Positions 1,516 through 19,595 of a stretch of 24,419 bases of DNA are shown here, one piece after another. The notes beneath the pieces were generated by a model. The model was not told the origin of the DNA. It saw only the letters and a program-made list of their open reading frames with translations, and did no database searches. Made by a program: the position numbers and the translations under genes. Source of the stretch: a virus. The stretch is taken from positions 1 to 24,419 of the IMG/VR virus record IMGVR_UViG_3300037502_000177, one strand, 5' to 3'. How positions within the stretch are numbered: the first letter of the stretch is position 1; the number at the start of each line of letters is the position of its first letter.

Positions 1516-1863
1516 ATGCAAGCACCTGCGACACTAAATCTAAATTGTTGGCAAGGCGCCAATTTCGACTACTCGCTAACCTGGCGAACTAACGGAACCG
1601 CCGTAAATCTAACCGGCTATTCGGCAAGGATGCAGGTTAGAGAGACTTACGATTCGACAACTCCGGTTCTAAGCCTTACTAGCGGAAGCGGAATTACTCT
1701 AGGCGGAACTGCTGGTTCGATTATCCTCGAAGCTACCGCGACTACTACCGCGGGAGTTCCATCTGGCCAGTATGTTTATGACCTAGAACTCGTTACAGGC
1801 GGTGGCTATGTTACGAGATTACTCGAAGGTAACTTCACAGTCGATCCAGAGGTAACTCGTTGA
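1516..1863 (+). CDS. Small beta-rich virion protein, fibre-associated
   Basis: This is a 115-aa product that starts directly after the portal stop. It is rich in Thr, Gly and Val with alternating beta patterns: [11 protein letters not shown] (about 31-41), then [11 protein letters not shown] (about 59-69), then G-Q-Y-V-Y-D-L-E-L (about 84-92), and a conserved-looking end E-V-T-R. The layout resembles the immunoglobulin-like or BppU-N-terminal-like small proteins that often precede collagen-repeat fibres in prophages; this is a family impression, not a proven match. The next gene starts inside its stop codon (TTGA), which suggests coupled expression with the collagen-like protein and a possible adaptor or decoration role on the head. 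Confidence 0.6.
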
Positions 1864-3470
1864 GCCAAATTTATGTAACGACCGGAACAGCGGTAGTAGA
1901 GGTAACTGCCCCTAATACCGCAACTATTATTACGAGCGGAACTTTCTCTGCCGTAGTAAATGAGAATCAAGCTACTCTGGTCGATAACATAATTGGCGCT
2001 ACCGCAATCGCAGAACCCGCCTACATACAGTTCAATGTAAATGCTGTTCCCTCTATCGCAGTCGGTCGAATCGGCTGGAATGATGCGGATAAAACTCTAG
2101 AACTTGGAATGACCCCGACTGTAAATCAAAATGTCGGCCAAGAGCTTTTTATTCTTTGTAAATCCTCGGATGGTTCGGAGCGAACTAAGGGCAAGGCGGT
2201 TTATGTAACCGGATCCGATGGAAATAACAAACTTGTCTCCTACGCCTCCGCAAGTAGCGAGGCAACTAGCTCGAAGACTATCGCTATTATGGCCGAGACA
2301 ATTAGCGGTGGCAGTAAAGGATTTGCGGCAAGCTTTGGCCTAGTAAGAGGCATAAATACAAATGGGCTAACCGAAGGCGCTGCTGTATGGCTATCTCCAA
2401 CAGTTCCCGGAGGCCTAACTTCTACTAGGCCTCCTGCTCCGGATAACGCCGTTTTTATTGGCTACTGTATTCGAGCAAATCAAAACAACGGAATTATCTA
2501 TGTAAATATTCAAAATGGATACGAGCTAGATGAGCTTCACAATGTAAGACTTACGACTCCGACCGATGGTCAATCTTTAGTTTATGACTCGACTTCTAAT
2601 CTTTGGGTAAATGAGACAGTATTAGGTCAGCCGACAGTCCTATCGGTTGGAACAGTTACTAGCGGAACAGTTGCCGCGGTCACAGTTACCGGAACAGCTC
2701 CTTCGCAGACTCTAAATTTTGTTTTACCGAAAGGCGATAAAGGAGATACCGGCGCAACTGGAGCGCAAGGGGCAAAGGGTGATAAGGGTGATAAAGGGGA
2801 TACTGGACTTACTGGCGCGACTGGTGCTACTGGCGCTACTGGGCAGACTGGCCCACAAGGCGCACAAGGAATTCAGGGAAAGACTGGGCCACAGGGGCCG
2901 CAGGGGCTAACCGGAGCAACCGGAGCAACTGGCGCAAAGGGAGATAAAGGCGATACCGGAGATCCGGGGCAAGCCGCGACTATCGCAGTCGGAACTGTTA
3001 CGACAGGAAGCGCGGGAAGCTCTGCCTCGATAACAAATGTTGGAACTTCTAGCGCAGCTATTTTCGACTTTACTATTCCTAGGGGCGATACAGGAGCTAC
3101 CGGTGCTACCGGGGCTACTGGAGCGACCGGCGCTAAAGGAGATAAGGGAGATACCGGAGATGCCGCGACTATTACAGTCGGCACAGTTACTACCGGCGCT
3201 CCCGGAAGTTCCGCGACTGTAACTAATGTCGGCAGCACTAGCGCCGCTATCTTTGACTTTTCTATTCCGGCAGGAGCAACCGGAGCAACTGGTGCGACCG
3301 GAGCTACTGGCCCACAAGGCCCATCCGGAGTTATAAATGCTACCTCTCCCCTTACTTACGATTCTCAAACTCAAACAGTCGCGATAAATACCACCGCCGC
3401 AGGTATAACGATAAATGGAACAGCAGTCGCTTTAGGCGGAACGATTACTGTCTTAGCTAGGTTGGGATAA
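1860..3470 (+). CDS. Collagen-like fibre / head decoration protein
   Basis: The 536-aa product starts at TTG 1860 (TTGA overlap with the upstream stop). Residues 1-258 form a non-repetitive, beta-rich head domain including a segment with the pattern of a virion-surface or lyase-type fibre head. From 259 on, a module of about 34-37 residues (V-G-T-V-T-T-G ... F-x-I-P-x-G) occurs three times (about 259-292, 373-409, 436-472). Each copy is followed by collagen Gly-X-Y triplets: about 292-370, 409-434 and 472-490. A globular C-terminal cap of about 45 residues follows. Collagen-type triplets form trimeric rods in phage fibres. It is unusual that the gene lies between portal and protease rather than after the tape measure, so it may decorate the capsid rather than the tail tip. 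Opposite-strand open frames here are artefacts of the GC-rich repeats. Confidence 0.85.
2632..3330 (+). repeat. Collagen-triplet and beta-module repeats inside the fibre gene
   Basis: The DNA carries three imperfect copies of a module of about 110 bp, each followed by runs of ggA-gcN-acN and ggN-gaT-aaG triplets. The copies differ at third positions, so they have diverged as protein repeats. Such arrays are prone to length change by recombination or slippage. The first module (from about 2632) is the most diverged; the second and third (from about 2976 and 3165) are closest to each other. Confidence 0.8.
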
Positions 3471-4984
3471 TGCCTTACTTTATTTCAAATACGAACCCGG
3501 ATTGTTCAGGATGGGCTGTCGAGAAAGAAGATGGCGAGGTAATCGGCTGCCACGATACTAAGCAGTCTGCTATCGACCAGATGGTCGCGGTATCTATTGC
3601 CGAAGGTATGGAGCCAGGCGGCGAAAGAGCTAAGCCTACCGAACTAGAAGTCGGAGATTATGTTTCTTGGAACTCCTCCGGAGGTCGCGCTAGAGGCGAG
3701 ATAGTTCGAATAGAAAGAGATGGAACTATAAATGTTCCAGATTCGAGCGTAACTATTACCGGAACTCCCGATGATCCAGCCGCTCTTATTCAGATTTATC
3801 GCAGGGTAGAAGGAGGATGGGATGATACCGATGTTTATGTCGGGCATAAATTCTCTACTCTTACTAAAATCGACCGACTAGAAGAACCGATGGATGAACC
3901 GGAAGATGACGAAGTTCGACAGGTAGATCTAACTCCGCCCGCCTATATGAGAGCCTCCGCTCGTAGAGGCCTAGAGTGGTATTCCGAAGGATTAGGCGGC
4001 GATGGCCTAGTCGATAGAACTATTCGCGAGGCTCGTGAGATGGCAGAAGGTCGAGTCTCTGCGGATAAGTGGAACAGAATCCAGGCTTGGATTGCCAGAC
4101 ACTTAGTCGATCTAGATTCGCCAGATGCGAATCCAGAATCAGATAATTATCCTTCACCGGGAGTTGTTGCGATGGCTCTCTGGGGTGGAGGAACAACAAG
4201 AAGAACCGCACTCCGCGCTCAGGCTTATGCGGAAGGTGTAGTCGCTAGACTAGAAGCCGAAGAAGAACGAGGAAAGATGAAGCACGAAACCAGAAACTTT
4301 GACGCTCAGTTTGAGCTAAGAGAAGAAGGCGATGGTATGACCTTTGTCGGTTATGCCGCAAAGTTCAATTCCCCATCCGAGGATCTAGGCGGATTCGTGG
4401 AGACTATCGAACCAGGCGCTTTCCGCCGCTCGCTACGCGCTCGCAACGATGTAAAGCTTTTAGTAAATCACGATACTGGTCGCGTATTAGCTTCCTCCCG
4501 CTCCGGAACTATGAAGCTTTATGAAGATGAGGTTGGACTCCGAGTAGAGGCAAGCCTGCCTAATACCTCCGATGGTAGAGATATGGCAGAGCTGCTAAAG
4601 CGTGGAGACCTAAACAAAATGTCTTTTGGCTTCGCGGTTCAAAAGGATGCTTGGAACAACGAAATGACCGAAAGAACTCTAAAGTCTGTTCGACTATTCG
4701 AGGTCTCGATTGTTGCCTTCCCTGCCTATGCCGCGACCGAAGCAATGGTTCGCTCCCTAGATAAGGCAGCAAAGCGGGCGCAGGTAGATCCAGATCAGCT
4801 CGCGGATGCCGTATTCAAGCTAGAAGAAGGCGCAGACCTAACGGATGAGCAGGCAGAGCTAATCAAGACAGTTGTAAATTCCCTTACTCCAACTCAGGTA
4901 AAGGAAGAAGAACAAACCGAAGAAGAAGTCAATTTGTTAGAGCTAAAGCGCAAGCAGCTCGACCTATTACTAAAGAGGAACTAA
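3470..4984 (+). CDS. Multi-domain prohead protease (HK97 gp4-like, family U35/S78)
   Basis: The 504-aa product is much longer than a usual prohead protease (about 200-250 aa). Residues 1-45 form a small domain with the pattern C-S-G-W-A-V ... G-E-V-I-G-C-H-D-T-K. Residues about 60-137 contain V-G-D-Y-V-S-W-N-S-S-G-G and G-E-I-V-R-I and look like a Tudor/SH3-type barrel of the hypervirulence-associated (Hva1) kind. Residues about 150-262 are a helical domain with A-R-R-G-L-E-W and W-I-A-R-H. Residues about 270-432 are the protease, with the catalytic His in V-N-H-D (H334) and the nucleophile Ser in K-M-S-F-G-F (S385), the pair expected for this family. An acidic Glu-rich C-terminus follows and may serve as scaffold. 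ATG 4277 (codon 270), after GAGGAAAG, could be an internal start giving the protease alone. The protease matures the capsid and removes scaffold. Confidence 0.9.
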   Translation: MPYFISNTNPDCSGWAVEKEDGEVIGCHDTKQSAIDQMVAVSIAEGMEPGGERAKPTELEVGDYVSWNSSGGRARGEIVRIERDGTINVPDSSVTITGTPDDPAALIQIYRRVEGGWDDTDVYVGHKFSTLTKIDRLEEPMDEPEDDEVRQVDLTPPAYMRASARRGLEWYSEGLGGDGLVDRTIREAREMAEGRVSADKWNRIQAWIARHLVDLDSPDANPESDNYPSPGVVAMALWGGGTTRRTALRAQAYAEGVVARLEAEEERGKMKHETRNFDAQFELREEGDGMTFVGYAAKFNSPSEDLGGFVETIEPGAFRRSLRARNDVKLLVNHDTGRVLASSRSGTMKLYEDEVGLRVEASLPNTSDGRDMAELLKRGDLNKMSFGFAVQKDAWNNEMTERTLKSVRLFEVSIVAFPAYAATEAMVRSLDKAAKRAQVDPDQLADAVFKLEEGADLTDEQAELIKTVVNSLTPTQVKEEEQTEEEVNLLELKRKQLDLLLKRN

Positions 4985-5238: not shown

Positions 5239-5281
5239 CCCCGCAGGGTCTTTTCCTTTCTACCTGCGGGGTTTCTCTTTT
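5239..5281 (+). terminator. Rho-independent terminator before the major capsid gene
   Basis: A perfect 9-bp stem pairs CCCCGCAGG (5239-5247) with CCTGCGGGG (5263-5271) over a 15-nt loop. It is followed by TTTCTCTTTT (5272-5281). It separates the portal-protease operon from the capsid gene. Confidence 0.9.
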
Positions 5282-5297
5282 GGTATAGAATAAAACT
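5282..5297 (+). promoter_or_regulatory. Candidate promoter for the major capsid gene (TATAGAAT)
   Basis: Right after the terminator T-tract lies TGGTATAGAAT. TAGAAT at 5286-5291 fits a TANNNT -10 box, and TGG before TATAGA also fits an extended -10. The predicted start of transcription, 6-7 nt later, falls at ATG 5298. Related GGTAGAAT words occur before 9493 and 11409. No convincing -35 was seen. Confidence 0.6.
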
Positions 5298-5377
5298 ATG
5301 GCCGAGCGTTAGCGCCGCCTGTTTCAGTTCTGCGTTAGCGCGGCTGAAGTTCAACTAACAATTAGGAGAAATGCCAA
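5298..5377 (+). promoter_or_regulatory. 80-nt capsid mRNA leader with mini-ORF and direct repeat
   Basis: If transcription starts at 5298, the mRNA begins with ATG of a four-codon ORF (M-A-E-R, stop 5310-5312). The 10-nt word GCGTTAGCGC occurs twice, at 5306-5315 and 5332-5341, 26 nt apart; short GC-rich pairings between GCCGC and GCGGC are possible. The leader ends in AGGAG (5364-5368), 9 nt before the capsid ATG. An out-of-frame ATG at 5371 lies closer to the Shine-Dalgarno but opens only a short frame. Whether the mini-ORF or repeats matter is unknown. Confidence 0.4.
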
Positions 5378-6553
5378 ATGTCACAGTCTTTTATCAAGGC
5401 TCAGGCAGAGGCTCGCGCAAAGGCGTGGGAAGAAGCAAAAGCGCTTCTTGACACCGCTGCCGCAGAGAAGCGTGATCTAACCGCTGAGGAGACTCAGAAG
5501 TTCGACCGCATCAACGCAGAACTTGACGAGCGAGCTGCTGCTATCGAGACAATCCGCAAGGCAGAGGAGCGCGAGGCTAAGGCCGCCGCCGCAGCTTCAG
5601 ACTTTGCTGTCTCAGATGTAGTTAAGTCCGACTACGACTATGTCCGCGCACTAGCAAAGGGAGAGATTCGCTCTCACTCTTTCGAGACTCGCGGAACTCT
5701 AACCCCTTCCGGTTCTTCAGGTCTAGTGCCACAGAGCTTTGTTGCTCGTGTCTATGACCTAGCTCGTGAAGTTGGTCCAATGCTCGATGTTTCTGAAGTA
5801 TTCCAGACGCAGAGTGGGGAAGATTTGAAGATCCCAACTTTGACTGCTTATGGAACTGCTGGTTACGAAGCACCTGGCGCAGAGATTGACGAAAGTGAGC
5901 CTACCTTCAGCTCCATTACATTGGGCGCGAAGAAATACGCTTTCTTGGTTCCAGTGGCGCGTGAGCTAATCGAAGATGGTGGAGTGGATGTTGCCGAGGT
6001 TCTTGCTCGCGCAGCTGGAAACTCAATCGGTGTCGCAGTAAATGCTGCACTTACCACTGGTGCTGGTGGAGCTTCTGCTCCTACCGGAATTATGACCGCT
6101 GCGGGAACTGGTGTAAATGGCACCATCGCAGGCGGCCTATTCACCGCAGACCAACTCATCGACCTTGTCTACTCAGTTGATGGTGCTGTGCGCAGATTGA
6201 ATGGAACCGGATGGCTTATGTCTCCTTCCGCAATCCGTAACGCCCGCAAGCTGAAGGACAACGATGGCCAATACTTGTTCCAGCCTTCACTTCAGGCTGG
6301 ACAGCCAGACTCGCTACTTGGCTTCCGCGTGTATGAAAACCCAGGCGTGGCCGCTGTTGGTTCAGCTGCAGCTTCGGTTGGTTTTGGATACCTGCCTAGC
6401 TACAAGGTTCGCGTTGCTGGTGGCCTTCGTGTCGACAGGAGCGATGACTTCAAGTTCGCAAACGACCTCAGCGTTTTCAGATTTATGATTCGCGTTGATG
6501 GAAACTTGTCGCACCAGGAGCACTTCAAGATTTTCAAGGGATCGGCTGCTTAG
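5378..6553 (+). CDS. Major capsid protein (HK97 fold)
   Basis: The 391-aa length is typical of HK97-type capsid precursors. Residues 1-75 are a charged coiled coil rich in Ala, Glu, Lys and Arg, the delta-domain-like scaffold that the protease removes. The remainder has the family's pattern: a Gly/Ser linker followed by L-V-P-Q-S-F-V (about 115-121), then a central region K-I-P-T-L-T-A-Y, then K-K-Y-A-F-L-V-P-V-A-R-E-L (about 186-198). The C-terminus has F-A-N-D-L-S-V-F-R-F and D-G-N-L-S-H-Q-E-H-F-K. The start is chosen by AGGAG at 9-nt spacing. The gene sits alone between two terminators with its own -10 box, giving high monocistronic expression. Arg is nearly always CGC/CGT here, whereas neighbours use AGA freely, consistent with translational selection. 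Confidence 0.94.
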   Translation: MSQSFIKAQAEARAKAWEEAKALLDTAAAEKRDLTAEETQKFDRINAELDERAAAIETIRKAEEREAKAAAAASDFAVSDVVKSDYDYVRALAKGEIRSHSFETRGTLTPSGSSGLVPQSFVARVYDLAREVGPMLDVSEVFQTQSGEDLKIPTLTAYGTAGYEAPGAEIDESEPTFSSITLGAKKYAFLVPVARELIEDGGVDVAEVLARAAGNSIGVAVNAALTTGAGGASAPTGIMTAAGTGVNGTIAGGLFTADQLIDLVYSVDGAVRRLNGTGWLMSPSAIRNARKLKDNDGQYLFQPSLQAGQPDSLLGFRVYENPGVAAVGSAAASVGFGYLPSYKVRVAGGLRVDRSDDFKFANDLSVFRFMIRVDGNLSHQEHFKIFKGSAA

Positions 6554-6573: not shown

Positions 6574-6602
6574 AAAACCCTCGCTAAAAGGCGGGGGTTT
6601 TT
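6574..6602 (+). terminator. Rho-independent terminator after the major capsid gene
   Basis: An 11-bp stem pairs AAAACCCTCGC (6574-6584) with GCGGGGGTTTT (6591-6601), one T-G wobble, with loop TAAAAG and a run of five T at 6598-6602. It ends the capsid transcript. Confidence 0.9.
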
Positions 6603-6604
6603 GC

Positions 6605-6625
6605 TATTCTGGGGTTAGAAAGGAA
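6605..6625 (+). promoter_or_regulatory. Candidate -10 box and ribosome site for the sugar cassette
   Basis: TATTCT (6605-6610) fits TANNNT, with a predicted start near 6617. GAAAGGAA (6618-6625) is a Shine-Dalgarno 3-4 nt before ATG 6629. A new promoter is needed because a strong terminator lies just upstream. Confidence 0.45.
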
Positions 6626-6628
6626 TTT

Positions 6629-7831
6629 ATGAAGCCAGAAAAGTTAGACCTGACCATAACTACTTGGTCAAACTCGCCCTATCAGCCAACCGGCTATGGG
6701 ATGCAAATAGGAATCCTTTTAGACTTCCTAGTAAAGCACGGAGTAAGAGCGGCGCACGCTTCGAACTGGGGATTAGAGGGAAGTAACTCTACCTACAAAA
6801 CCGCATACGGAGAGATTCCGCACTATGCGAGAGGTTACGATCCGATGTCTCAGGATTCGCTCGCGGTTGCGCATAAAATCGAAGCCGCTAAGTCCGACTA
6901 TAAAGACTACATACTTACTCTTGGAGATGTCTGGACCCTAAAGCCGGAGATTTGGCCGACCGAAGAATTTCCAAGAATCCTCTCGTGGGTTCCGCTAGAC
7001 CATATCTCAATGCCACCTGCGGTAAAGCGATGGCTGCAAAAAGAAAATGTAACCCCTATTGCGATGGCTCCTTTTGGAAAAGAGCAGCTAGAGGAAAATG
7101 GAATCGAGGGAATGTACATACCGCACTCGATAGATACAGTCTCGACCTTCAAGCCAACTGAGAAAATCGGCAAGCAAGATGCTAGAGAGTTCTTAGGGCT
7201 AAAGGATGATGACTTCCTAATCGTAATGAACTCAGCTAATAAAGCTAATAAGTCAATTCACCGCAAAGCCTTCGCTGAAGCTCTTATGGCCTTCGCGGTA
7301 TTTAGACAGAAAGTGCCTAACGCCTATCTCTACATACATACAGAGCCAAAAGGAATCTACGGCGGCTATCACCTGCCTCGAATTGCCGAAGCCTGCGGAG
7401 TTCCGCTCGATGCGGTTATCTTCCCGGATGCTATCGACTACCGCTTAGGTATCGACCCGAAGGATCTAGCCGGCTTTTATTCAACTGCGGATGTTGCTTT
7501 ACAGCTTTCCCTCGGAGGCGGGTTCGAAATTCCAATTATTGAGGCGCAGGCCTGCGGCACTCGTGTTATCGCTACCGACTGGACTGGGCCAAGAGACTTA
7601 GTAGCGGAAGATGGCTTCAAGGTCTCCGGACAGTTGTTCTGGGATGAAGCGCAGCTAGCTTGGTGGAAGACTCCTTCTATCGCCTCTATCGTTACGCAAC
7701 TAGAAAATGCTTATGAGGTAGCGAAGTCCGAAGGAAGACACTCCGAGACCGCTCGAAAGTTCGCGCAGCAATTCGATTCTCAGAAGGTCTGGAATCACTA
7801 CTGGATGCCTTTCCTAAAGGGGCTTCAGTGA
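6629..7831 (+). CDS. GT4-like glycosyltransferase (GT-B fold)
   Basis: The 400-aa product has the layout of a GT-B retaining glycosyltransferase. The N-terminal domain carries S-P-Y-Q-P-T-G-Y-G-M-Q (about 16-26), the usual acceptor-side glycine loop. The C-terminal domain carries G-G-G-F-E-I-P-I-I-E-A-Q-A-C-G (296-310) and then D-W-T-G-P-R-D-L-V. This stretch matches the sugar-nucleotide site of family GT4, but the first Glu of the common E-x7-E pair is a Gly (G297) while the second is kept (E305). The start ATG 6629 has a good Shine-Dalgarno. It overlaps the next gene by 4 nt (GTGA). It opens a three-gene sugar operon inside the structural module, so it probably adds sugar to a virion protein. 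Host envelope modification is the alternative. Confidence 0.82.
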   Translation: MKPEKLDLTITTWSNSPYQPTGYGMQIGILLDFLVKHGVRAAHASNWGLEGSNSTYKTAYGEIPHYARGYDPMSQDSLAVAHKIEAAKSDYKDYILTLGDVWTLKPEIWPTEEFPRILSWVPLDHISMPPAVKRWLQKENVTPIAMAPFGKEQLEENGIEGMYIPHSIDTVSTFKPTEKIGKQDAREFLGLKDDDFLIVMNSANKANKSIHRKAFAEALMAFAVFRQKVPNAYLYIHTEPKGIYGGYHLPRIAEACGVPLDAVIFPDAIDYRLGIDPKDLAGFYSTADVALQLSLGGGFEIPIIEAQACGTRVIATDWTGPRDLVAEDGFKVSGQLFWDEAQLAWWKTPSIASIVTQLENAYEVAKSEGRHSETARKFAQQFDSQKVWNHYWMPFLKGLQ

Positions 7832-8472
7832 TCCTTATTGTTCCTGTCCTAAACCGATACGACCTTTTACAAAGGATGGTTCATAGTATTGACTACGAAA
7901 TTAGCGACTTGCTAATTATAGACAATGGCAGGGAACTAGGGGAACTAGAAGTTCCGGATTTTGTAAAGAAGACTCATATCCTTACTATGCCTACTAATCA
8001 GGGAGTAGCCGGGAGCTGGAACCTGGGAATCAAGTGCTTTCCCTTCGAGCCTTTCTGGACTTTTACTTCGGCGGATAATCAGTTCAAGCCCGGAGCGCTA
8101 AAGAATCTTGCCGAGCAATCGAGGCCGGATACCCTAACCCTAAACTCGATCTGGCCGCACTATCAGAGCTTCAGCGTAGGAGAACAGCTAGTTCAAGAAG
8201 TCGGATTATTTGACGAGTCTATCTATCCGATTTATTTCGAGGATAACGACTATGAGCGCAGGGTAGTAAATAAAGGCTTCTCGGTTCTAAAGATAGAAGC
8301 CCCGGTTCATCACGATAATGCCTCTACTATTACCGACCCGAACTATGCGAATCGTAATGGCGTTAGCTGGCCTTCTAATCAGGCTTACTATCAAAATAAA
8401 TGCGATACCGATAACTTCTCCGAAGGTCGCTGGAATCTCGAAAGGATTAGGGCTAATAGTTGGCACAAGTAA
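7828..8472 (+). CDS. GT2-like glycosyltransferase (GT-A fold)
   Basis: The 214-aa product starts at GTG 7828, overlapping the previous stop (GTGA). Expected GT-A features are visible: an N-terminal V-P-V-L-N-R-Y-D-L-L strand-loop, then L-L-I-I-D-N-G (about 28-34), then N-Q-G-V-A-G-S-W-N-L-G-I (about 57-68). T-S-A-D-N (about 80-84) stands in the DxD position. F-E-D-N-D-Y-E-R-R (about 132-140) holds the likely catalytic acid of inverting GT2 enzymes, followed by a His-His-Asp stretch. No membrane helices are present, so it is soluble. It is shorter than many GT2 enzymes but complete in the catalytic core. The two transferases together suggest a short glycan of at least two sugars, or two alternative additions. 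Confidence 0.85.
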   Translation: MILIVPVLNRYDLLQRMVHSIDYEISDLLIIDNGRELGELEVPDFVKKTHILTMPTNQGVAGSWNLGIKCFPFEPFWTFTSADNQFKPGALKNLAEQSRPDTLTLNSIWPHYQSFSVGEQLVQEVGLFDESIYPIYFEDNDYERRVVNKGFSVLKIEAPVHHDNASTITDPNYANRNGVSWPSNQAYYQNKCDTDNFSEGRWNLERIRANSWHK

Positions 8473-9467
8473 CGATTACCGGAGTGGCTGGATTCTTAGG
8501 CTCGCACCTAGCGGATCTATTCCTAGCCGAAGGCTGGAAGGTAAAGGGAATCGACTCGCTAGTCGGAGGCTATCTCTCTAATGTTCCGGATGGCGTGGAA
8601 TTTTACGAGCAAGATTTAGCCTGGGATGTAGAGCTAATGGAGGAAGGATTCGTTGGCTCAGATTTAGTTATACACGCGGCCTGTACGGCCTACGAGGGGC
8701 TTTCTGTATTCAGCCCTAGTCTCGTGATACAAAATACAGTTCAGGCCACTACAAACGCTCTGGTGGCTTCTCAGAGGCAGGGAGTAAAGAAGTTTATCTA
8801 CCTTTCCTCTATGGCGCGTTATGGAGCCTTGCCTACTCCTTATACGGAGGATATGACAACTGCGCCGCAAGATCCGTATGGCATAGCAAAGATGGCTTCG
8901 GAGCTTCTAGTAAAAAACATTTGTAATACCCACGAGATGGACTGGGTAATCCTAGTTCCGCATAACATAATTGGGCCACGCCAAAAATACGATGACCCCT
9001 TCCGGAATGTAGCCTCGATTATGACTAACCGATTACTTCAGGGTAAGCCACCGATTATCTACGGCGATGGAACTCAGATGCGCTGCTTTAGCTTTATTGA
9101 CGATGTTATCGAGCCGCTTTATACAGCCTGCCTAAGTGAAGATGCTGTCGGAGAGGTTATAAACATTGGCCCCGATGAGGAATCTGTAACTATAAATGAA
9201 CTCGCAGAAAGACTTCAGAAAATAGTCGGAACAAACTTCGAGCCTATTTATACCGGAGGAAGGCCGCAGGAGGTAAAGATAGCTCTCTGCTCTAGCGATA
9301 AGGCAAGGAAACTTCTGGGCTATAAAACCTCGACAACCCTCGACCAGGGGCTTACTGAGCTAGTCGAGTGGATAAAAGAAAGAGGAGCTAAAGACTTCGA
9401 GTATCACCTGCCTATTGAGATAGAGTCCGACCGGCTCCCGGAAACCTGGTCTAAGCGGTTGTTCTAA
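8460..9467 (+). CDS. NAD-dependent sugar epimerase/dehydratase (extended SDR)
   Basis: The 335-aa product starts at TTG 8460 inside the end of the GT2 gene (13-nt overlap). The Rossmann glycine motif is G-V-A-G-F-L-G (8-14), at the very N-terminus, which supports the TTG start. The L-S-S-M (115-118) and Y-G-I-A-K (140-144) motifs give the Ser/Tyr/Lys catalytic set of extended short-chain dehydrogenases. F-S-F-I-D-D-V (about 212-218) is the C-terminal substrate-domain motif of the UDP-glucose 4-epimerase group. The likely role is conversion of a nucleotide sugar (epimerisation or 4,6-dehydration) to supply the two transferases upstream. The exact substrate cannot be read from sequence. The gene ends just before the promoter of the connector operon. 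Confidence 0.88.
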   Translation: MAQVTITGVAGFLGSHLADLFLAEGWKVKGIDSLVGGYLSNVPDGVEFYEQDLAWDVELMEEGFVGSDLVIHAACTAYEGLSVFSPSLVIQNTVQATTNALVASQRQGVKKFIYLSSMARYGALPTPYTEDMTTAPQDPYGIAKMASELLVKNICNTHEMDWVILVPHNIIGPRQKYDDPFRNVASIMTNRLLQGKPPIIYGDGTQMRCFSFIDDVIEPLYTACLSEDAVGEVINIGPDEESVTINELAERLQKIVGTNFEPIYTGGRPQEVKIALCSSDKARKLLGYKTSTTLDQGLTELVEWIKERGAKDFEYHLPIEIESDRLPETWSKRLF

Positions 9468-9469
9468 AG

Positions 9470-9489
9470 GTAGAATTTAGGCAGGAGAA
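9470..9489 (+). promoter_or_regulatory. GGTAGAATTTA promoter-like word before the connector operon
   Basis: TAGAAT (9471-9476) within GGTAGAATTTA fits a -10 box. The same 11-nt word lies before 11409 (11385-11395). AGGAG follows at 9483-9487, 5 nt before ATG 9493. No clear terminator precedes it, so readthrough from the sugar genes is also possible. Confidence 0.5.
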
Positions 9490-9492
9490 AAA

Positions 9493-10086
9493 ATGGCAAT
9501 TTCTAATGGTTACGCAACCCTTCAGCAAGTCAAATCAGCGATAAGAATCGCGGATGGTTTTGACGATTCAAACCTAGAGATGGCTATCGAGGCCGCCTCT
9601 AGGCAGATTGACTCTTATACAGAGCGCTACTTCTACAACGCCGGAACAGCTACGAAGATCTTTGCCCCGATAGATAACTTTGTATGTCCTACCGAAGACT
9701 TTATTACCCTTACAAAGGTAGAGACCTCCGAAGACGGAGAAAGCTACGATACCGAATGGTCGGCTAGCGACTGGCAGGCAGAGCCTCTAAATGGTCGCGC
9801 CGGTGGTCTAGTAACCGCTTATACCCAGATTAGAGCTATCGAGGATTATCTATTCCCATACCGAAATGGCGAAGCGACTGTTCGAGTTACCGGAACTTGG
9901 GGATGGTCTGCTGTTCCTATCGCGATTACCCAGGCAACGATTATTCTTGCCTCTCGAATCTTCAAGCGCCTAGATTCGCCTCTAGGAATTATCTCTAACG
10001 AACTAGGTTCTATGCGAGTCGGCTTTAGGCTCGATCCCGATGTACAGCACCTTATCGACCCTTACCGCAGAATTGCGATGGCCTAA
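9493..10086 (+). CDS. Head-tail connector (HK97 gp6-like)
   Basis: The 197-aa product begins with a helical pattern typical of the connector family that packs under the portal: T-L-Q-Q-V-K-S-A-I-R-I, then L-E-M-A-I-E-A-A-S-R-Q-I-D-S-Y-T (about 29-44). A beta-rich middle follows with F-I-T-L-T-K-V-E-T-S-E-D-G (about 72-84), and V-T-G-T-W-G-W (about 133-139) precedes a last long helix with A-S-R-I-F-K-R. These are recurrent features of actinophage gp6-like proteins. It overlaps the next gene by one nucleotide (TAATG). Start support is AGGAG at 5-nt spacing. Confidence 0.8.
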   Translation: MAISNGYATLQQVKSAIRIADGFDDSNLEMAIEAASRQIDSYTERYFYNAGTATKIFAPIDNFVCPTEDFITLTKVETSEDGESYDTEWSASDWQAEPLNGRAGGLVTAYTQIRAIEDYLFPYRNGEATVRVTGTWGWSAVPIAITQATIILASRIFKRLDSPLGIISNELGSMRVGFRLDPDVQHLIDPYRRIAMA

Positions 10087-15893: not shown

Positions 15894-16439
15894 ATGGCTG
15901 GATTAGGCCGCAAAGTTTTTACCGCCGGTGAGGTGCTCACTGCCGCAAATGTTCAGGATTACCTGCAAGACCAGGCGGTGATGGTCTTTGCTAGTAGCGC
16001 GGCTCGATCCTCTGCGATTGGAACCGCTACCGAAGGTATGGTTACCTACCTCTCGGATACGAATGAGATTCAGGTAGCGACCGCAACTAATACTTGGGCT
16101 ACTGTATTTCCTGTTTCCCTGCCAACAACTGCTGTCAACTCAATCACCGCTGCGTACACCGCTGTCGCAGGGGATGAAAACGACACTATCTATGTTTCTG
16201 GAACTGCCGCTGTAACTGTCACAATCCCTGATGTTCTTTCTGTCGGTGGTCGAATTGACATTTGGAGAAACGCTGGCGGCACTGTAACCATAGCTGCTGG
16301 TAGCGGTGTGAGTGACTGGGCTGGGGCCGGGACCGCCGGGACCGCAGTCCAATTTAAGATTGACCAAACTTACAACGCTGCAACTGTTCAAAAAGTTGCT
16401 GCTAACACTTATCGAGTAGTTGGAAAGATAACTGCATAA
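15894..16439 (+). CDS. Minor tail / fibre adaptor protein, probably chimeric
   Basis: The 181-aa product starts after AAAGGAG. The first ~75 residues (L-G-R-K-V-F-T-A-G-E-V-L-T-A-A-N-V-Q-D-Y, then a V-F-A-S-S-A-A-R segment) are a recurrent N-terminal motif of actinophage tail-tip proteins that anchor receptor-binding parts. From about residue 79 (near 16130) it becomes a beta-rich repeat-like domain (V-T-V-T-I-P-D-V-L-S and G-T-V-T-I-A-A-G-S-G). Leucine use shifts there from CTA toward CTT and CTG. The change coincides with the start of the AT-rich fibre block, so a recombination joint inside this gene is likely. It overlaps the next gene by TAATG. Confidence 0.72.
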   Translation: MAGLGRKVFTAGEVLTAANVQDYLQDQAVMVFASSAARSSAIGTATEGMVTYLSDTNEIQVATATNTWATVFPVSLPTTAVNSITAAYTAVAGDENDTIYVSGTAAVTVTIPDVLSVGGRIDIWRNAGGTVTIAAGSGVSDWAGAGTAGTAVQFKIDQTYNAATVQKVAANTYRVVGKITA

Positions 16440-16999
16440 TGCCTATTCCTTTAGGAATTATTGCTGTTGCAGGAGCAGGTGCAGCAGGTGGTGGTGGTTC
16501 TTTTGACCTGCTTGAAACTGTAACGATAGGCACTACAACTGCAAGCGTGACATTTAGCGGTCTTGGAAGCTATACAAATTACAAGCATTTACAAATCAGA
16601 GCTGCCGTTCGTATAAACGCTGGGGTTGTTCAAACTGCTGGGCCAGTTGTTCAGTTGAATAGCGATACTGGCTCAAACTACGCTAGACACAATTTATCTG
16701 GAGATGGTTCTTCGGTTGTTAGTACTGCCCAAACAGGAACAAGTGGTTTTTATGGACTTATTTCAGCTGGAGCAAACGCAGGAGCTAACATTTTCGGAGT
16801 TGCGGTGATTGACATTCTTGATTTCTCATCAAGTAATAAGAACACCACTTTGCGTTCTCTAACTGGGGTTGCGGCAAGCGAAAGCAGAATTGCGTTACGC
16901 TCAGCTTTATGGAACAACACCGCCGCTGTTACAAGTATTACTTTTGCCGATGCTGACATTTTAGCCGGCAGCCGTTTCTCCTTGTATGGTTACAAGTAG
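16439..16999 (+). CDS. Tail fibre-type protein, tandem paralogue 1
   Basis: The 186-aa product shares a domain with the next two genes. Recurrent parts are a leading hydrophobic strand set, T-A-S-V-T-F-S, then N-S-D-T-G-S-N-Y (about 74-81), then D-I-L-D-F-S-S-S-N-K (about 124-133), then W-N-N-T-A-A-V-T-S-I-T-F, and an end L-A-G-S-R-F-S-L-Y-G. It begins with a Gly/Ala-rich strip of about 25 residues (A-G-A-G-A-A-G-G-G-G) which may be a flexible linker. The start overlaps the upstream stop. Probable role: receptor-binding or virion surface protein at the tail tip, inferred from context. Confidence 0.7.
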   Translation: MPIPLGIIAVAGAGAAGGGGSFDLLETVTIGTTTASVTFSGLGSYTNYKHLQIRAAVRINAGVVQTAGPVVQLNSDTGSNYARHNLSGDGSSVVSTAQTGTSGFYGLISAGANAGANIFGVAVIDILDFSSSNKNTTLRSLTGVAASESRIALRSALWNNTAAVTSITFADADILAGSRFSLYGYK

Positions 17000-17017
17000 G
17001 CAGGGAAAGGAAAAAAG

Positions 17018-17521
17018 ATGCCCACATCCACCTACGATCTGATAGCTTCTAATGTTCTAGGCTCTAGTGCTGCAAGCGTAACTTTTTCTTCTATCCCTGC
17101 GACCTATCGGGATTTGATACTCGTTATTGACGCTTCTTCTGCCGACCCAACAGCGATGCAAACTAGATTCAATTCTGATAGCGGAGCTAATTATGGTTAT
17201 GTAAGAGCGACTGTTGACGGTGCTGGCAGTATTACGAGTGCTGCCGCTTTTGGGGCAACAAGTTTAGTAAATCCGAGCTTCTCTCCAATTTACGAAAATG
17301 CAACAGTTCACATTATCCAAGTAATGGACTATTCAGCAACCGATAAACACAAAACAGTATTGTCTAGGTATAACTATGGAACTGGCGGAGTTTACAATGG
17401 AGTCGCTATGACGGCTGATAGGTGGGCAAATACAGCCGCTATAAATACAATTAGCGTTGGTGTAAATTCTTCAAACTTTGCTAGTGGGAGTTCGTTTTAC
17501 CTATTCGGAATAGTGAGCTAA
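17018..17521 (+). CDS. Tail fibre-type protein, tandem paralogue 2
   Basis: The 167-aa product has the same scheme as its neighbours: S-A-A-S-V-T-F-S-S-I-P, then F-N-S-D-S-G-A-N-Y-G-Y, then I-Q-V-M-D-Y-S-A-T-D-K-H-K-T (near 105-118), W-A-N-T-A-A-I-N-T-I, and the end G-S-S-F-Y-L-F-G. AGGGAAAGGAAAA gives a strong ribosome site. AT-rich third positions and few CTA codons mark it as different from the tape-measure region. It probably encodes a variable tail-tip protein. Function otherwise unknown. Confidence 0.7.
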   Translation: MPTSTYDLIASNVLGSSAASVTFSSIPATYRDLILVIDASSADPTAMQTRFNSDSGANYGYVRATVDGAGSITSAAAFGATSLVNPSFSPIYENATVHIIQVMDYSATDKHKTVLSRYNYGTGGVYNGVAMTADRWANTAAINTISVGVNSSNFASGSSFYLFGIVS

Positions 17522-17523
17522 TT

Positions 17524-18003
17524 ATGGCTATGACACTTGTAAGCACAGTTGTTTTATCTACAACTGGTCAAATACTAATAACTAACATTCCTCAAACTGG
17601 CAAAGATTTATTGCTATTGGTTTCTGGCAGGGTAGATAATACAAACAAAGATGGGGCTTTGAGGTTCAACAATGATAGCGGCTCTAATTACACTCTAAGA
17701 ACCTTAGAAGGCTCTGGGTCTGCTGCTAGTAGTGCATCTGAAACAACCAGTTTTATTAGAATTCTCAACAGTCAATCGGGTTTTACGACTAATACTTTTA
17801 CAAATCAAGCAATTTATGTTGCTAATTACACAAGCACTACCAATAAATCTATAAGCGTGGATGAAGTAACTGAAAACAATGCAACTCAATCTTTCCAACG
17901 AATTTCTGCTGGCCTTTATACAACATCATCAGGTATTACACAACTTGAGATTTTTGCCAGCACCATAGCCAACAGCTCCGCAAGCCTCTACATCATCTCT
18001 TAG
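17524..18003 (+). CDS. Tail fibre-type protein, tandem paralogue 3
   Basis: The 159-aa product is the most AT-rich of the three; 17521-17580 holds only 19 G or C in 60. It keeps the F-N-N-D-S-G-S-N-Y motif (about 48-56) and a later Y-T-S-T-T-N-K-S segment matching D-Y-S-A-T-D-K in paralogue 2. It lacks the conserved W-x-N-T-A-A motif and has divergent C-terminal strands (I-A-N-S-S-A-S-L-Y-I-I). It follows paralogue 2 by 2 nt and may be a decaying or further diverging copy. Role as for the other two: probable receptor-binding surface. Confidence 0.65.
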   Translation: MAMTLVSTVVLSTTGQILITNIPQTGKDLLLLVSGRVDNTNKDGALRFNNDSGSNYTLRTLEGSGSAASSASETTSFIRILNSQSGFTTNTFTNQAIYVANYTSTTNKSISVDEVTENNATQSFQRISAGLYTTSSGITQLEIFASTIANSSASLYIIS

Positions 18004-19343: not shown

Positions 19344-19595
19344 CTAGCGCTCGTGAGGGAGAGTAGCAGCCCAGACTCCGTATCGCTGGCCTGACTCGAC
19401 CGCATACCGAAAACACTCTGCCTTTATAGGACAGTCGTTACAGAGCCTTTTAGCTATAAGAGTCGCTAGTTGCCGCTTCATTGGATCCGGGATATCTTCC
19501 GGGTAGAAAAGCTCCGGAAAGTCTTCGCAGGCTACCCCGCCGTTAGCGTGAATAGCCTTTAGAAGCCGGTAGTGCTTCTCGTCAAAATGGCCCAT
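19344..19595 (-). CDS. WhiB-family iron-sulfur regulator
   Basis: The 83-aa product is the only clear minus-strand gene. Four cysteines fit the WhiB iron-sulfur motif: C23, C52, C55 and C61 (C-x28-C-N-D-C-P-x4-C). The G-V-W (73-75) turn follows, though the second Gly of G-V-W-G-G is Ala-Ala here. A Glu-Arg end replaces the long basic tail of some family members. WhiB proteins occur in Actinobacteria and their phages, and act as redox/NO-responsive transcription factors, often by binding the primary sigma factor. Its start is 6 nt behind a TAGACT box, with the YqaJ gene divergent, so it may regulate its own and the recombination promoter. Confidence 0.92.
   Translation of the reverse strand: MGHFDEKHYRLLKAIHANGGVACEDFPELFYPEDIPDPMKRQLATLIAKRLCNDCPIKAECFRYAVESGQRYGVWAATLPHER

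Follow-up and report, generated by a model that had tools for sequence, protein, structure and literature searches.

The window, that is, the whole 24,419-base virus record analysed here, comes from a siphovirus with an HK97-type head. Between the genes for the major capsid protein and the head-tail connector, it carries an island of three overlapping sugar genes, which encode a GT4-like glycosyltransferase (GT), a GT2-like GT, and an extended SDR nucleotide-sugar enzyme (Table 1). The initial annotation had described this arrangement from the sequence, and both the exact coordinates and the family matches were confirmed. The GT4 gene runs from an ATG to a TGA codon, the GT2 gene starts with GTG and overlaps the GT4 gene by 4 nt, and the SDR gene starts with TTG and overlaps the GT2 gene by 13 nt; 25 nt separate its stop codon from the start of the connector gene. 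The island has the same orientation as the head and tail genes and is preceded by a conserved promoter. Searches of the window for Rfam families and tRNAs gave no hits. A search with PADLOC gave no match for GT4, GT2, or SDR, and the possibility that the cassette is a defence system was rejected on this basis. The hosts are probably actinobacteria, judging by the host of Pontimonas phage phiPsal1, the Microbacteriaceae assembly L316, and a putative WhiB-like ORF at positions 19344-19595.

Table 1 Annotated features of the island between the capsid and connector genes and of its flanks
Feature	Position	Strand	Evidence
Major capsid protein, HK97 fold; constant left flank	5378..6553	+	PF05065, 187 bits
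Intrinsic terminator hairpin followed by a T run	6577..6598	+	Covariation across 15 relatives
Extended -10 element TGcTATTCT of the island transcript	6602..6610	+	Conservation of TGnTAnnnT
Ribosome-binding site of the GT4 gene, AGAAAGGA	6617..6624	+	Sequence; kept in close relatives
GT4-like glycosyltransferase, constant anchor enzyme	6629..7831	+	PF13692, GT-B fold, capsid linkage
GT2-like glycosyltransferase, first gene of the exchangeable module	7828..8472	+	PF00535, phrog_29879, motifs
Extended SDR nucleotide-sugar enzyme, epimerase-like, second module gene	8460..9467	+	PF01370, motifs, 4zrm
TAGAAT, possible -10 element before the connector gene	9471..9476	+	Conservation in relatives
Head-tail connector, HK97 gp6-like; constant right flank	9493..10086	+	PF05135, phrog_442

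The hairpin that follows the capsid gene has an 8-pair stem, with 100% of the cells paired across 15 relatives, compared to at most 63% in slid controls, and four of the pairs show two-sided compensatory changes. Directly after the T run, the pattern TGnTAnnnT is present in 51 of the 55 relatives, against 4.9 in shuffled sequences, so that the -10 box that had been proposed behind the capsid terminator is supported better than expected by chance. A sigma-70 consensus scan demands a -35 box and therefore reported nothing at the start of the island; the extended -10 element was detected by its conservation. In 62 of 134 relatives, TAGAAT occurs in the 60 nt that precede the connector gene (3.2 in shuffles), and some relatives have an additional terminator in front of this gene. 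Given these signals at both ends, the island can be predicted to produce either its own, separate late transcript or one that reads through into the neck and tail genes.

In profile searches, the window GT4 matched PF13692 (39.3 bits, cut-off 27) and PF00534 (33.3 bits, cut-off 26.4), and its AlphaFold model (pLDDT 91.4) has the GT-B fold, matching the structures of MshA, PimB', and BshA. The complete EX7E motif of the GT4 family is absent: the last Glu (305) is invariant, the first one is replaced by Gly297, and a new Glu appears at position 300. The resulting sequence, GGGFEIPIIE, is found in the window and its nearest relatives, whereas most relatives have the canonical GEGFGxPxxE, with the first Glu present in proteins about 40-51% identical to the window GT4. 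We count the window enzyme as a divergent, GT4-like putative glycosyltransferase. The altered motif is retained alongside different downstream modules; therefore, we read the loss of the first Glu as a probable change in donor handling rather than decay.

The GT2 matched PF00535 (33.7 bits vs a cut-off of 23.3) as well as phrog_29879, and its acidic motifs are invariant, namely D83, FDE at positions 128-130 (F128-D-E130), and DND at positions 139-141 (D139-N-D141). The SDR matched PF01370 with 155.8 bits; its GxxGxxG (G8/G11/G14) and YxxxK (Y140/K144) motifs are invariant in nine relatives, and the nearest solved structure is 4zrm, a UDP-glucose 4-epimerase. Against NCBIfam, the SDR reached no equivalog cut-off, the best scores being 119.7 of the required 475 for LegB and 108.8 of 262 for GalE. 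Its SSMARYG segment appears to be devoid of the acidic residue that is typically found in 4,6-dehydratases. In the comparisons that allowed dS to be estimated, dN/dS was below 0.1 for GT4, GT2, and SDR, indicating strong purifying selection on each of them; the values are rough, as dS is near saturation.

The DNA of the cassette had no match among phage records, and therefore we turned to protein searches. Loci were gathered by capsid homology, by the connector, and by the cassette enzymes, and all counts refer to the matches listed, at most 80 loci per search, whereas the matching viral contigs number more than 600. In a cassette-blind sample, collected by capsid homology alone and restricted to those distinct contigs, among the matches listed, that extend 700 nt or more past the capsid gene, GT4 is encoded directly behind the capsid gene in 107 of 108 contigs. 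This near-universality pertains to the clade whose capsids share about 50% identity or more with that of the window. In the single exception (L219), GT4 and the connector are on the opposite strand, which looks like an inversion or a misassembly. Because of this constant position behind the capsid gene, GT4 is to be considered a core gene of the clade rather than an insertion; clade relatives without GT4 were not found among the matches listed, and insertion of the cassette as a whole was rejected for this gene. Thus, the original notion of an inserted three-gene cassette survives for the GT2 and SDR genes, which form an exchangeable module, and fails for GT4. Likewise, the accompanying statement that head genes are normally uninterrupted at this site holds for the distant phages Shagrat and phiBT1 but not in the clade of the window, where the site is always occupied. 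The more distant phages with an unoccupied capsid-connector site are Rhodococcus phage Shagrat, phiBT1, and Microcystis phage Mae-JY02.

Among more distant relatives, GT4 is encoded near capsid genes of different types. The order is capsid-86 aa-GT4-PF04488 GT in L317 and capsid-GT4-GT2-SDR-connector in L318, the latter being the order of the window at a GT4 identity of 34%; in three other loci (L320, L323, and L326), GT4 lies near capsids of the PF25209 type, and it is also located near the capsid gene of Microcystis phage Mae-JY09. GT4 relatives are rare in bacterial assemblies, with 12 loci detected in 84,980 species scanned, a count limited by the search patterns, and those with readable upstream sequence are mostly found behind phage capsid genes, including those of the PF25209 type.

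Only the part of the island behind GT4 varies, and in the window, this exchangeable module consists of GT2 and SDR. Altogether, 24 types of gene sets follow GT4 in 103 non-redundant phages, and at least 38 cargo changes, nearly all sugar-related, map to the tree of the capsid and connector. The cargo consists almost wholly of sugar enzymes and methyltransferases, and examples of the sets are GT2 with SDR, as in the window; GT2 with a TagD-like cytidylyltransferase; another GT2 with an RmlD-like reductase; a GT-like protein (c8) with GT2; SDR with a methyltransferase and GT2; GT17; and nothing beyond GT4 itself. The exchange is traceable at the DNA level. Two phages that carry GT2 with SDR (L008) and GT2 with the cytidylyltransferase (L207) are 95.8% identical up to the GT4 stop codon and unalignable from there on, until identity resumes, at 94.9%, 22 nt before the connector. 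Another pair, L204 and L201, has the same breakpoints, with identity outside and different gene sets inside. Overall, the module-swapped pairs show 93-96% DNA identity on both flanks, which is lost at the GT4 stop codon and regained immediately upstream of the connector. Such pairs recur in independent samples, so that assembly error is a poor explanation.

The modules also have a history distinct from that of the phages that carry them. The proteins of one relative (L071) are 76% (SDR) and 69% (GT2) identical to those of the window, but the identity drops to 60% for the capsid and 47% for GT4; elsewhere, SDRs are 66-68% identical where the capsid identity is about 50% and that of GT4 about 40%. 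The partner of GT2 (SDR, cytidylyltransferase, or other) requires 7 changes on the GT2 tree vs 16 on the capsid-connector tree of the same phages, and the acidic motif of GT2 varies with the partner, being mostly SAD next to SDR and NDD next to the cytidylyltransferase. Therefore, the modules are functional pairs, in which GT2 is co-inherited with its partner enzyme rather than with the phage. As a side observation, the TagD-like cytidylyltransferase of one common module also fits the chemistry of wall teichoic acid, which counts against the virion as the destination of the sugars.

We consider it probable, at roughly 60%, that the island is a late-expressed virion-glycosylation locus in which an anchor enzyme is combined with exchangeable modules. 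This reading is favoured because of the late, structural-operon position of the genes, the universal linkage with the capsid gene, the recurrence behind unrelated capsids, the presence of soluble enzymes only, and the existence of Corndog-type GT genes inside a head operon. In particular, the persistence of the capsid linkage over large distances makes the virion a likelier target than the host wall. Taking the observed gene order, enzyme families, and module exchange as the starting point, we infer the acceptor, the sugars, the order of their addition, and the advantage as follows. GT4, produced late from the island promoter, would act in the host cytoplasm and attach the initial sugar to an abundant structural protein, the leading candidate being the major capsid protein and perhaps also the tail tube, via a C-terminal Ser/Thr. 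GT2 would then attach the next sugar, with the sugar-nucleotide donor supplied by SDR. GT4 would remain fixed, while the block behind it (a transferase and a donor-maker, sometimes with a methyltransferase) would be swapped as a whole when related phages recombine, and near-identical phages would thus bear different glycan coats. The advantage might lie in an altered virion surface that counters binding by molecules derived from hosts, grazers, or competitors.

The capsid protein of the window ends in ...FKGSAA, where the Ser near the end is a candidate acceptor. Of 194 distinct capsid relatives, 190 have a Ser or Thr among their five C-terminal residues, a count that comes without a proper control; its position shifts among the C-termini (GSAA, GAAS, GATA, SSNS), and four relatives end in GNAA, which counts against a Ser/Thr acceptor. 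The C-terminus of the tail tube usually contains Ser or Thr, too. With only three GT-free control phages, this feature was rejected as proof of the acceptor, and the pattern is suggestive of a C-terminal glycan site on the capsid. The collagen-like fibre, also named as an acceptor at the outset, is unlikely to play this role in general: among the 31 cassette-bearing genomes whose upstream sequence is long enough, 13 have its gene and 18 lack it, and it was rejected as a general acceptor.

Several known systems resemble the island in part. Virion glycosylation is reported for the mycobacteriophages Che8, Corndog, and Myrna and is said to require gp110 in Che8 and gp38 in Corndog (PMC12363180); the Corndog capsid and Che8 particles are reported to be glycosylated (PMC12363180, PMC11600133), with the mycobacteriophage glycans located on the C-termini of the capsid and tail tube (PMC12619734, PMC12363180). 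In the Corndogvirus Firecracker, gp33-gp36 are a methyltransferase and three GTs encoded between the portal and the protease. The window resembles Corndogvirus in that, in both, a tailed actinophage has overlapping GT genes stacked within its head operon; tandem overlapping GT genes are common to both the Corndog and the Che8 types, and the head-operon position is that of Corndog. The two differ in the location, which in the window is between the capsid and connector genes, and in the enzymes, those of Corndogvirus being a TylF-like methyltransferase, phrog_4447, phrog_1721, and GT25 (PF01755), with which the window GT2 shares just an FDE-like motif. Che8 gp108-gp110 are also three overlapping sugar genes, reportedly linked to glycans on the capsid and tail-tube C-termini, but they reside at the right genome end, far from the head genes, and encode a GT2-methyltransferase fusion, a GT2, and a GT25, in contrast to the GT4 and SDR of the window. 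Single-sequence comparisons, which are weak, detected no homology of the window GT4 to Che8 gp108 or Firecracker gp34, or of the window GT2 to gp109, gp110, or gp35; the cassette had no hit to GT25 (PF01755), the family of Che8 gp110 and Corndog gp38, and hhalign gave a probability of 0.1% for the GT2 profile against gp110. Membership of the cassette in the Che8/Corndog enzyme families was rejected for lack of the GT25 feature. Like the missing first Glu of GT4, the failure to detect homology to these enzymes counts against virion glycosylation. By analogy, the island would work like the Corndog arrangement, built from other enzymes. Virion glycosylation, which had been suggested from the outset, is thus retained as the best-supported function, shorn of the three-gene insertion, the collagen-like fibre as the general acceptor, and homology to the mycobacteriophage enzymes.

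Among the matches listed, phiPsal1 (MG835450) has the closest proteins of any named phage; its genes 010-012 include counterparts of GT4 and GT2 (45% each) at the same site, between the capsid and neck genes, and a minus-strand methyltransferase replaces SDR; the authors do not discuss the function of these GT genes (PMC6106888). The solved fold closest to GT4 is also viral, namely the GT-B protein B736L of chlorovirus NY-2A (3oy2; E 5.6e-18, TM 0.73); with 16% identity and a common fold, it is no close kin of the window GT4. In chloroviruses, the capsid protein is glycosylated by the virus itself, and the glycan combines a conserved core with a variable part (PMC9614988). Unlike the phage considered here, they are viruses of eukaryotic algae and have N-linked glycans.

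For phage GTs, the usual explanations are superinfection exclusion and protection of the DNA; documented cases of virion glycosylation are confined to a few mycobacteriophages. The main alternative is that the host envelope is the target, with the enzymes altering, for instance, teichoic acid or some other polymer of the wall and thereby blocking superinfection or keeping the progeny from sticking to debris. Soluble GT4 and GT2 enzymes are able to act on cytoplasmic wall precursors, and the module with the TagD-like enzyme is common in relatives. Published proposals point in the same direction: the GTs of the first Nanopelagicales phage isolates, which infect freshwater actinobacteria, were suggested to function in superinfection exclusion or DNA protection (PMC10202952), and the same role was proposed for pelagimyophage GTs (PMC7029224). 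Nevertheless, we regard modification of the envelope as unlikely, if still a serious contender, in view of the head-operon position and the invariant linkage with the capsid gene, other capsid types included. The island lies outside any lysogeny module, and late expression would leave little time for wall remodelling. Furthermore, a hydrophobicity scan, in which the membrane ORFs of the window served as the control and scored 1.9-2.2, above the threshold, identified 11 of 747 island proteins that reached the threshold, 10 of these being GT2; no membrane GT, flippase, or exporter was seen among the 747, so that a flippase-dependent wall pathway was not apparent. The hallmark of Gtr-type seroconversion, a membrane flippase or membrane-bound GT beside a cytoplasmic GT, was not found in the same set.

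The island could also be an ordinary moron, in which three genes with a promoter of their own were inserted sporadically and sit between the capsid and connector genes by chance, with no relation to the virion. The promoter and the upstream terminator are as expected of a moron, some relatives have a terminator before the connector as well, and GT2 and SDR move horizontally; however, the presence of GT4 behind nearly all capsid genes among the matches listed is anything but sporadic, and the slot is always filled by sugar-related genes. For GT4, this explanation is already largely refuted, and for the island we deem it improbable. Glycosylation of the phage DNA as protection from restriction, which has been proposed for related freshwater phages (PMC10202952), is more improbable still: the complete genome of phiPsal1, a carrier of the GT pair, has no annotated DNA-hypermodification gene, none was noticed among the ORFs of the window, the genes are located among head rather than replication genes, and profile searches yielded no match to a DNA glucosyltransferase family.

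Within the virion-glycosylation reading, we tentatively suggest, at somewhat less than even odds, that the locus is a virion serotype switch, with a fixed, capsid-linked GT and modules exchanged precisely between gene edges. If so, near-identical phages would differ in their head glycan, in a counterpart of the switching of O-antigen and capsule loci in bacteria, and the glycan coat would be a core but fast-diversifying virion trait in nature; phages that differ solely in the module should then differ in virion glycan mass. In the open-licence literature, we found no paper on a fixed, capsid-linked GT with exchangeable modules. In this reading, the capsid-linked anchor GT is the constant part throughout a large aquatic actinophage group and recurs in phages of other phyla.

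In the GT4 enzyme encoded directly behind the capsid gene, comparison with the relatives shows that the EX7E active-site motif is altered: the first glutamate is gone, and a new one appears three residues further on, so that GGGFEIPIIE replaces the usual GEGFGxPxxE. This variant is common to the window and its nearest relatives, which differ in their modules, the exchangeable genes behind GT4.

The gap between the capsid gene and GT4 is occupied in a few relatives by a minus-strand gene (loci L267 and L284), and thus, this gap also acquires foreign genes. The capsid-GT4 arrangement extends to other phyla: one locus (L317) resides on a 318-kb Pirellulales contig. An unusual cargo gene follows GT4 in a phage locus from a Chloroflexi assembly (L322). 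In another relative (L219), the GT4-connector block and the capsid gene lie on opposite strands of a single contig, an apparent case of either inversion or misassembly.

The capsid gene of the window seems to be preceded by the same layout as the island: a long hairpin, its T-rich tail and then a TGGTATAGA box, so that this gene may be expressed as a separate transcript. Further upstream, a collagen-like gene lies between the portal and protease genes; of the 31 cassette-bearing relatives whose sequence extends far enough upstream, 13 carry such a gene, with 11-58 triplets. The N-terminal extension of the protease is unusual for a head protease. In the tail region, three consecutive short genes, alike in appearance, lie in the most AT-rich part of the window (lowest GC 0.38).

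Features of the window and of loci in relatives
Locus	Positions	Strand	Feature
Window	1860-3470		Collagen-like gene, 27 consecutive GXY triplets
Window	3470-4984		Prohead protease, long N-terminal extension matching TUDOR-like domain (PF11160)
Window	5239-5300		Putative hairpin, T-rich tail, box
Window	7514-7543		GT4 motif variant, residues 296-305
Window	16439-18003		Short tail-region genes
L267	1525-2079	-	Weak YgjP-like metallopeptidase match
L284	7242-7796	-	Weak YgjP-like metallopeptidase match
L317	6442-9790		Capsid, 86-aa ORF, GT4, PF04488 glycosyltransferase
L322	9200-10582		Radical-SAM/B12-binding-like protein
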